A DNA stretch of 64,000 nucleotides, taken from positions 45,411-109,410 of the IMG/VR virus record IMGVR_UViG_3300009161_000028; one strand, written 5' to 3'. The stretch is from a virus. Each line of letters begins with the position of its first letter. The stretch's first letter is position 1. Shown one piece after another: positions 4,611 through 5,658 of this stretch. Under the pieces are notes generated by a model that was not told where the DNA came from, made no database searches, and worked only from the letters and a program-made list of their open reading frames with translations. The position numbers and the translations under genes are program-made.

Positions 4611-5018
4611 ATGAGATCTAGAGAATTTATAACTGAATCATCTGACATACGTAGCAAGCTTGATAGTTTTGTGGAGTATGCGTGTAAGTGTATTGGATTA
4701 GATCATCCTCCTGAGATTGTGCTAATTGATAGTAAGAAGCATGCAGTGGCTCAGGGTAGCTTTGGCGGATACAGCCTAGATGATAAAAATATTCGCGTAA
4801 ACATTGCTGGCCGTCATGCTGCTGATATCATGCGTACACTTGCACACGAATTAGTGCATGCACGTCAGGATCGCACAGTTGATGGTGGACTACAGCCCAA
4901 CGATGGAGTCACTGGTAGTCAATACGAAAATGAAGCTAATAGTCTAGCAGGACAGATCATGCGCGACTATGCTAAGAAGAATCCTGCTATATTTGAGTCA
5001 CGCCGTGCGAGTCGTTGA
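4611..5018 (+). CDS. putative zinc metallopeptidase with capsid-targeting-like N-terminus
   Basis: The 135-residue product carries HELVH at residues 79-83 (HExxH; zinc ligands H79 and H83, catalytic E80). A downstream acidic helix, YENEANSLAG (E106/E108), could supply the third ligand, as in gluzincins. The N-terminus MRSREFITES closely resembles the tag of T4 internal proteins (QEFIAEA). T4 protease gp21 cuts such tags after (I/L)xE, and ITE fits. The protein may therefore be packaged in the head and injected, or act in virion maturation. The structured noncoding region lies directly upstream. No good Shine-Dalgarno is seen. The next gene overlaps by 14 bases. Confidence 0.65.
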   Translation: MRSREFITESSDIRSKLDSFVEYACKCIGLDHPPEIVLIDSKKHAVAQGSFGGYSLDDKNIRVNIAGRHAADIMRTLAHELVHARQDRTVDGGLQPNDGVTGSQYENEANSLAGQIMRDYAKKNPAIFESRRASR

Positions 5019-5658
5019 ATTCATCACTGAAGCACCGTTTAACGATGATACTATAGACGAAATAGATGCATGGGCTGCGTTAAAAGGATTTCGTTTTCTC
5101 AACAGCGGCTCTGACGCAAGAGTCTACATTAATGCCGAACAGACTATGGTATTAAAAGTATTTGTAAACGAATACGGTCAGTCACCAACAAATGCCGCAT
5201 TGGGTTTTCTAACCTTTTATAAGTTTTGCCAACGTAATCCCAGCAATCCGCATTTACCTAAATTTCTAAGTTCACCTCGGCGTGTGAAAATTAATGGCGA
5301 AAGCATCATCTACATAGAGATGGAATTACTCAAGCATCTTAACAAGCGTATGGAACGAATTGCTGACGATTTAGTTGATCATTTAGATTTGCCGTGGTTA
5401 GAGTTGGGCACAATACAACCAGGTCATCAATTCCTTGTAAGTGGCGAAACAAAGACCATGTTGCAAGGTCCGGAAGAAGTCAAGCGTATGTGGTATAACT
5501 TTTATCAAACTTTGATAGAGTTATTTAAATATTACGGTAAACGTAGTCCTGAAGGGGAAAAGAAAAAATCAACAGCAGTTATGTGGGACATAGGCGGCAG
5601 TAACATAATGTCCCGCAACTTAGTGCCTGTGATAACCGATCCCTTTATAGCCTATTAA
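5005..5658 (+). CDS. protein-kinase-like protein with capsid-targeting-like N-terminus
   Basis: A GTG start at 5005 gives 217 residues beginning MRVVEFITEAPF, matching the tag of the preceding gene. An ATG at 4969 would add 12 residues, but the tag match favours GTG. The fold looks kinase-like. There is a Gly/Ser loop, SGSDARVYI (33-42), then VLKVF with K51 in the position of the ATP-binding Lys. A hinge-like YIEMELL follows. Near the end comes WDIGGSNIM with D195 and N200 spaced as in the catalytic loop D(x4)N, then ITDP with D212 in the DFG position. Whether it phosphorylates proteins or is a degenerate homologue is unknown. It is convergent with the small membrane-protein gene and shares its stop region. 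Confidence 0.6.
   Translation: MRVVEFITEAPFNDDTIDEIDAWAALKGFRFLNSGSDARVYINAEQTMVLKVFVNEYGQSPTNAALGFLTFYKFCQRNPSNPHLPKFLSSPRRVKINGESIIYIEMELLKHLNKRMERIADDLVDHLDLPWLELGTIQPGHQFLVSGETKTMLQGPEEVKRMWYNFYQTLIELFKYYGKRSPEGEKKKSTAVMWDIGGSNIMSRNLVPVITDPFIAY

Follow-up and report, generated by a model that had tools for sequence, protein, structure and literature searches.

A capsid-targeting-like tag on a zinc-peptidase-like and a kinase-like protein of a large T4-like water phage

Why would two neighboring phage genes, whose products fold differently, open with almost the same nine residues? The question is raised by genes A and B, which lie on the plus strand and overlap by 14 bases in a 64,000-base stretch of DNA (the window; bases 45,411–109,410 of the linear, 109,410-base virus record IMGVR_UViG_3300009161_000028). 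A 265,892-base record carries the same stretch at 100% identity over 6.4 kb and encodes an identical capsid N-terminus, and we therefore assign it to the same phage, a large T4-like water phage. A sequence-only reading had likened the two starts to the tag that directs T4 internal proteins into the prohead, and had taken A and B as a pair of packaged enzymes that act on the new host at entry. We give a probability of about 65% to the whole reading, in which T4-type capsid-targeting propeptides, cut by a gp21-type prohead protease, sit on enzymes that are delivered at infection. The two genes and their predicted processing sites, in window coordinates, are:

4611–5018, plus strand: gene A, 135 amino acids, starts MRSREFITESSDIR; zinc-peptidase-like, gluzincin type, with HELVH at residues 79–83 and E106.
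4611–4637, plus strand: tag of A, MRSREFITE, followed by SSD; gp21 is predicted to cleave at E9/S10, from the L/I-x-E rule and the collection-wide tag.
4986–5015, plus strand: C-terminal end of A, NPAIFE/SRRASR, with a second possible gp21 site (IFE/S), from the sequence.
5005–5658, plus strand: gene B, GTG start, 217 amino acids, starts MRVVEFITEAPF; protein-kinase-like, with K51, D195, N200 and D212.
5005–5031, plus strand: tag of B, MRVVEFITE, followed by APF; gp21 is predicted to cleave at E9/A10; T4 IPI also has ITE and then A.

The starts MRSREFITE/S and MRVVEFITE/A are both present on the adjacent open reading frames (ORFs), as had been claimed. The program-made ORF of B is longer and begins at an ATG (4969); the initial methionines of its relatives, one from the same phage (MRASEFITETPLD) and one from locus L124 (MKIVELLNEAY), align to the GTG at 5005, which we consequently take as the start. 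In structure models the tag residues are disordered (residues 1–8 in A and 1–12 in B). At the other end of A, further modules follow IFE/S or IYE/S in its relatives, and we grade this second site as weak because it may be just the natural end of the domain.

The T4 protease gp21 cleaves after L/I-x-E (PMC9026906), and both tags end in ITE, as the sequence-only reading had noted. Its comparison with the EFIAE tag of T4 also stands: IPII and IPIII start with MKTYQEFIAEA, which shares the EFI-x-E core, and IPI has STITE and then A, with its cut position inferred from the gp21 rule. For T4, ten residues suffice for capsid targeting, Tyr4 is important for it, and the capsid-targeting sequence (CTS) may, it has been suggested, enable T4-like phages to take a diversity of proteins into the head (PMC9026906). 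The T4 principle is already known, and several of its hallmarks recur here: a tag of about ten residues at the extreme N-terminus, its mobility across unrelated proteins, a gp21 site at its end followed by A or S, and a gp21-type protease in the phage. The tags also differ. The consensus found here, MRAxEFITE, is one residue shorter than MKTYQEFIAE and has no aromatic residue at position 4, so we call it CTS-like and not a strict T4 CTS; its carriers, unlike the T4 internal proteins, span at least 27 protein groups, with enzymes in many of these, and include probable polyproteins with internal sites.

How far does the tag extend beyond A and B? The strict form EF[ILM]xE occurs at ORF starts of A and B only in the whole 109,410-base record, where a looser pattern gives numerous chance matches and is uninformative. 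In the 265,892-base record, EFIxE is encoded at five sites, four of which are ORF starts that lie far apart (A, B and proteins of 437 and 205 amino acids). Across the IMG/VR collection, the pattern M[RK..]xxEFITE[AS] matches at least 120 stretches, and all 121 matches listed are ORF starts; a residue-permuted control pattern gives 11 matches in the whole collection. The same loci hold 69 tagged ORFs that do not fit the seed pattern, compared to 0 of 118 ORFs in control loci. Removal of the first ten residues leaves the tagged proteins, among them A and B, in at least 27 groups without detectable similarity, and the cargo behind the tags includes GNAT, NUDIX, cytidylyltransferase, GH19, Zeta-toxin-like kinase and carbinolamine dehydratase domains. 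The pattern of matches is not chance. The recurrence of EFITE for which the sequence-only reading had proposed a survey is found in the genome, and very widely beyond it. That reading is partly supported, and there is more than a pair, with at least four tagged proteins in the phage. The other two are:

L199, 869–2179 (about 69.4 kb in record G001): third tagged gene of the phage, 437 amino acids; B-like kinase, YEE/S site, carbinolamine dehydratase domain and NFADG module.
L198, 1313–1927 (about 123 kb in record G001): fourth tagged gene of the phage, 205 amino acids, MRATEFITESLDKPY; matches phrog_6387 (E = 4e-9).

Among the tagged proteins of other loci, one of 754 amino acids (L018, 7470–9731) combines cytidylyltransferase-like and Zeta-toxin-like kinase domains, and a GH19 lysozyme/chitinase-like protein (L118, 2923–3777, minus strand) is a cell-wall enzyme with a head tag. 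Two small modules, WSxKYKxSINCxxPKGFSQxAHC and NFADGKxPGR, recur after tags and internal sites (for example in L020, L037, L047, L120 and L127).

A tag that is cut by gp21 calls for a protease in the same phage. At 39–45 kb, the record holds a T4-like head module with genes for a gp21-like protease, scaffold, portal and capsid, and the S77 protease family PF03420 is found above its cut-off in the 265,892-base record (E = 1e-26):

L006, 2521–3153: gp21-like prohead protease, by position and sequence.

The phage's capsid protein has RKYIAE/SASSG immediately before its conserved part, and five other tagged genomes have LAE/S or LSE/S at the matching place. Of the 18 tagged records, six have an S77 protease, and exactly these six also have a full gp23; a seventh breaks off at a contig edge that leaves just the end of a capsid gene, and the remainder hold neither, which is expected of fragments that do not include the head module.

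The same cut site appears to be used inside longer proteins. Of 27 cases in which a module that follows a tag is also found within a longer protein, 22 have Glu directly before the module, in exact register (expectation 6.4%, p = 4e-22), and 17 of the 27 have a hydrophobic residue at P3; the cases stem from roughly ten module families and are not 27 independent events. Among 64 relatives of A, sampled by their active-site motif without using the tag, [LIVMFY]xE stands at the domain start in 49, compared to 18% of other windows (p = 8e-24). These two independent comparisons make polyproteins with internal gp21-type cut sites likely. Candidate examples are the proteins of L029, where NITE/S precedes the peptidase, and L124, where TLEE/A precedes the kinase, together with the 437-residue protein, in which a kinase is followed by YEE/SWSKSYKK and then by a carbinolamine dehydratase domain (Pterin_4a, E = 1e-16).

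We now consider what the tagged proteins are. HELVH in A and K51, D195, N200 and D212 in B all lie where the sequence-only reading had placed them, and searches found the zincin and protein-kinase-like folds that it had proposed. H79, E80, H83 and E106 of A are invariant across an alignment of 12 relatives. Its structure model (predicted local distance difference test, pLDDT, 84) matches Wss1 (Z = 9.0, root-mean-square deviation 3.0, 103 residues aligned) and abylysin (Foldseek E = 6e-4), and its best fold matches include the Wss1, minigluzincin and IrrE types. As modeled, A is a gluzincin-like peptidase: a zincin fold that carries HExxH and, further along, a Glu. The minigluzincins (abylysin and selecase), IrrE (M78) and Wss1/SPRTN have the same fold, HExxH and gluzincin-like further Glu; they differ from the A family, which is almost confined to phages and stays outside the curated Pfam cut-offs. 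A scores 15.4 bits against the Peptidase_M78 (IrrE-like) cut-off of 22, and the best family member reaches E = 2.5e-4. By one pattern, at least 562 relatives of A occur in viral contigs, compared to one in 84,980 cellular species genomes, and the family is accordingly mainly a phage family.

The model of B (pLDDT 74) was built on a thin alignment of four sequences and matches kinase folds with Z up to 9.6 (root-mean-square deviation 4.5, 147 residues aligned). G35, K51, D195, N200, M202, D212 and P213 are invariant in a family alignment that includes T7 gp0.7. Three of five B family members match the gp0.7 profile phrog_15752 (best E = 4.7e-11), B itself having no significant match, and hhalign compares the B family with gp0.7 at a probability of 84% (E = 8e-6, over 57 columns). 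By these profile comparisons, the B family appears related to the T7 host-takeover kinase. The gp0.7 kinase acts in the shut-off of host transcription during T7 infection (sequence record note), and T7 uses it on RNase III (PMC4858673). The kinase domains of B and gp0.7 appear related, whereas gp0.7 has a long C-terminal part and no such tag, and B is a bare tagged domain.

Do tagged proteins occur in virions? The Synechococcus phage S-SM1 cytidylyltransferase (T4-GC190) was detected in purified virions (PMC3037559), and its gene starts with MKKFSAFLNEAERS. Orthologues start with MKNFHQFITEATS, MRFLDFIKEAK, MKSFSQFLTETT and MKKFSAFLKEAQ, and metagenomic ones with MNFLEFITEA. Judged by these starts, the cytidylyltransferases of cultured cyanophages carry variants of the tag, and one protein family thus unites EFITE in its exact form with proof of presence in virions. 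Phage CBB is close to this phage by its capsid protein (61%), and its virion proteins CBB_254, CBB_256 and CBB_210, the last found in virions by mass spectrometry (PMC5259590), have tag-like starts; among the scaffold and core proteins of CBB, such starts are MSKLDKFLNESS and MANIKLLQEA. One gene of the window resembles CBB_210 (MNKLQKILTELTPEYSYRVKF) at its N-terminus:

57369–57929, plus strand: virion-protein relative with the tag-like start MKKLFEYIEEA; phrog_14802, virion structural protein (E = 2e-13).

From these observations, we consider that the tag is very probably a capsid-targeting sequence cut by gp21, and that A and B, by analogy with T4, are probably injected effectors, with somewhat less confidence. 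The first nine residues of each would be a propeptide of the T4 internal-protein type that binds the prohead core during head assembly and takes the enzyme in with it. A cut after ITE by the gp21-type protease of the phage itself would follow, and the mature enzyme would stay in the head until it leaves with the DNA at ejection, as T4 internal proteins and Alt do. Within the first minutes, B would phosphorylate host targets, and A would cleave a host protein, for takeover or counter-defence. The sequences and models directly show the tag, its spread over unrelated proteins, the register of the cut, the protease with a matching capsid site, and both folds; that A and B are packaged, cleaved and injected, and what they act on, is deduced from these. 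T4 Alt is a close parallel: this enzyme is packaged in the head, is cut by gp21 and, at entry, modifies the RNA polymerase of the host (PMC9026906); Alt is an ADP-ribosyltransferase, whereas the proteins here are a kinase-like protein and a peptidase.

Several observations weigh against this account. The main one is that the residue equivalent to T4 Tyr4 is S in A, V in B and A in the consensus, within a shortened tag, though F or Y stands there in the cyanophage relatives and in many more. Compared directly as single sequences, B and T7 gp0.7 show no significant similarity, and B alone misses the profile, so that their kinship rests on transitivity. The cytidylyltransferase was undetected in S-PM2 virions (PMC3037559), and there are no EFITE tags within the 200 kb of CBB that were read, so that CBB informs only on tag-like core proteins. 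The sequence-only reading had named homologues that lack the tag as evidence against it, and this applies in part: S-SRM01, L009–L011 and about a quarter of the 64 relatives of A have no clear site, but most homologues have a tag variant or a hydrophobic-x-E at the domain start.

The same observations can be read in other ways. The tag may target the prohead and be cut there while the proteins work inside the head, in core assembly, maturation or DNA protection, or are passive. The tag-like starts of the CBB scaffold and core proteins fit such a role, A as a peptidase could act in maturation, and T4 IPIII also functions in head assembly (PMC9026906); but a changing range of enzymes follows the tag (GNAT, NUDIX, GH19 and others) and the B family appears related to a host-takeover kinase, and we regard an in-head role as unlikely, though it is the strongest of the alternatives. 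We put at still longer odds that the tag is another sorting or degradation signal, for example to an assembly site in the cell, with its T4 likeness due to convergence. That the Tyr4 equivalent is not conserved, and that the direct link to virions comes from one published protein, would suit this explanation. It has to contend with a tag that ends in the gp21 L/I-x-E site common to the capsid proteins of the same genomes, with a cut register that recurs within polyproteins, and with orthologues of the virion-proven protein that carry the tag.

Finally, A and B might share their starts as paralogues or by chance similarity, as the two adjoining starts in the 109-kb record could suggest. Their folds differ, however, and we rejected this explanation, whose probability is negligible, on the collection-wide signal far above the permuted control and the four dispersed tagged proteins.

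The preferred reading of packaged and injected enzymes extends to a broader proposal, on which we are evenly divided: that a general system for addressing and cutting cargo is common to the T4-superfamily phages of aquatic habitats, in which an MRAxEFITE-type nine-residue tag brings in single proteins, or chains of modules that are split at gp21 sites in the head, for injection. The load of this phage would comprise, among other proteins, a zinc peptidase, a gp0.7-related kinase and a second kinase that is fused to a carbinolamine dehydratase domain.

The surroundings of A and B were also searched. The region upstream of A had been described as a structured RNA; searches there returned neither a tRNA nor, up to E = 1, a match in Rfam. 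Between A and a minus-strand gene, about 600 bases (3996–4610) contain no convincing ORF. That gene (3570–3995, minus strand) encodes 141 amino acids; its best PHROG match is labelled NAD synthetase, homing endonuclease families match too, and the label may be wrong. The T4 late-promoter motif TATAAATA occurs at chance-level frequency across the window, and there is none upstream of A. Defence-system profiles matched neither A, B nor the 437- and 205-residue tagged proteins. A nucleotide search of phage records gave no match, nor did tblastn searches of cultured phages with B and two tagged families. Elsewhere in the window, a single ORF of 4802 amino acids spans 22551–36959.

What appears new is how broadly the tag is spread among aquatic phages that have not been cultured, together with the probable processing of polyproteins and the tag on a gp0.7-related kinase. 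On a general tag in aquatic phages, the literature search gave only the T4 work and the remark in PMC9026906; most subscription journals lay outside it, and a prior description is possible. A diverse collection of enzymes is probably packaged in the particles of these viruses. Injected phage proteins have so far mostly been found singly, by proteomics; a readable tag and its cut sites would list the packaged proteins of many uncultured phages from their sequences, and many proteins to which no function is assigned would gain a role. Natural tag variants are on offer for loading proteins into phage heads. The finding also raises a testable question, whether a takeover kinase is delivered in the particle rather than made after entry.
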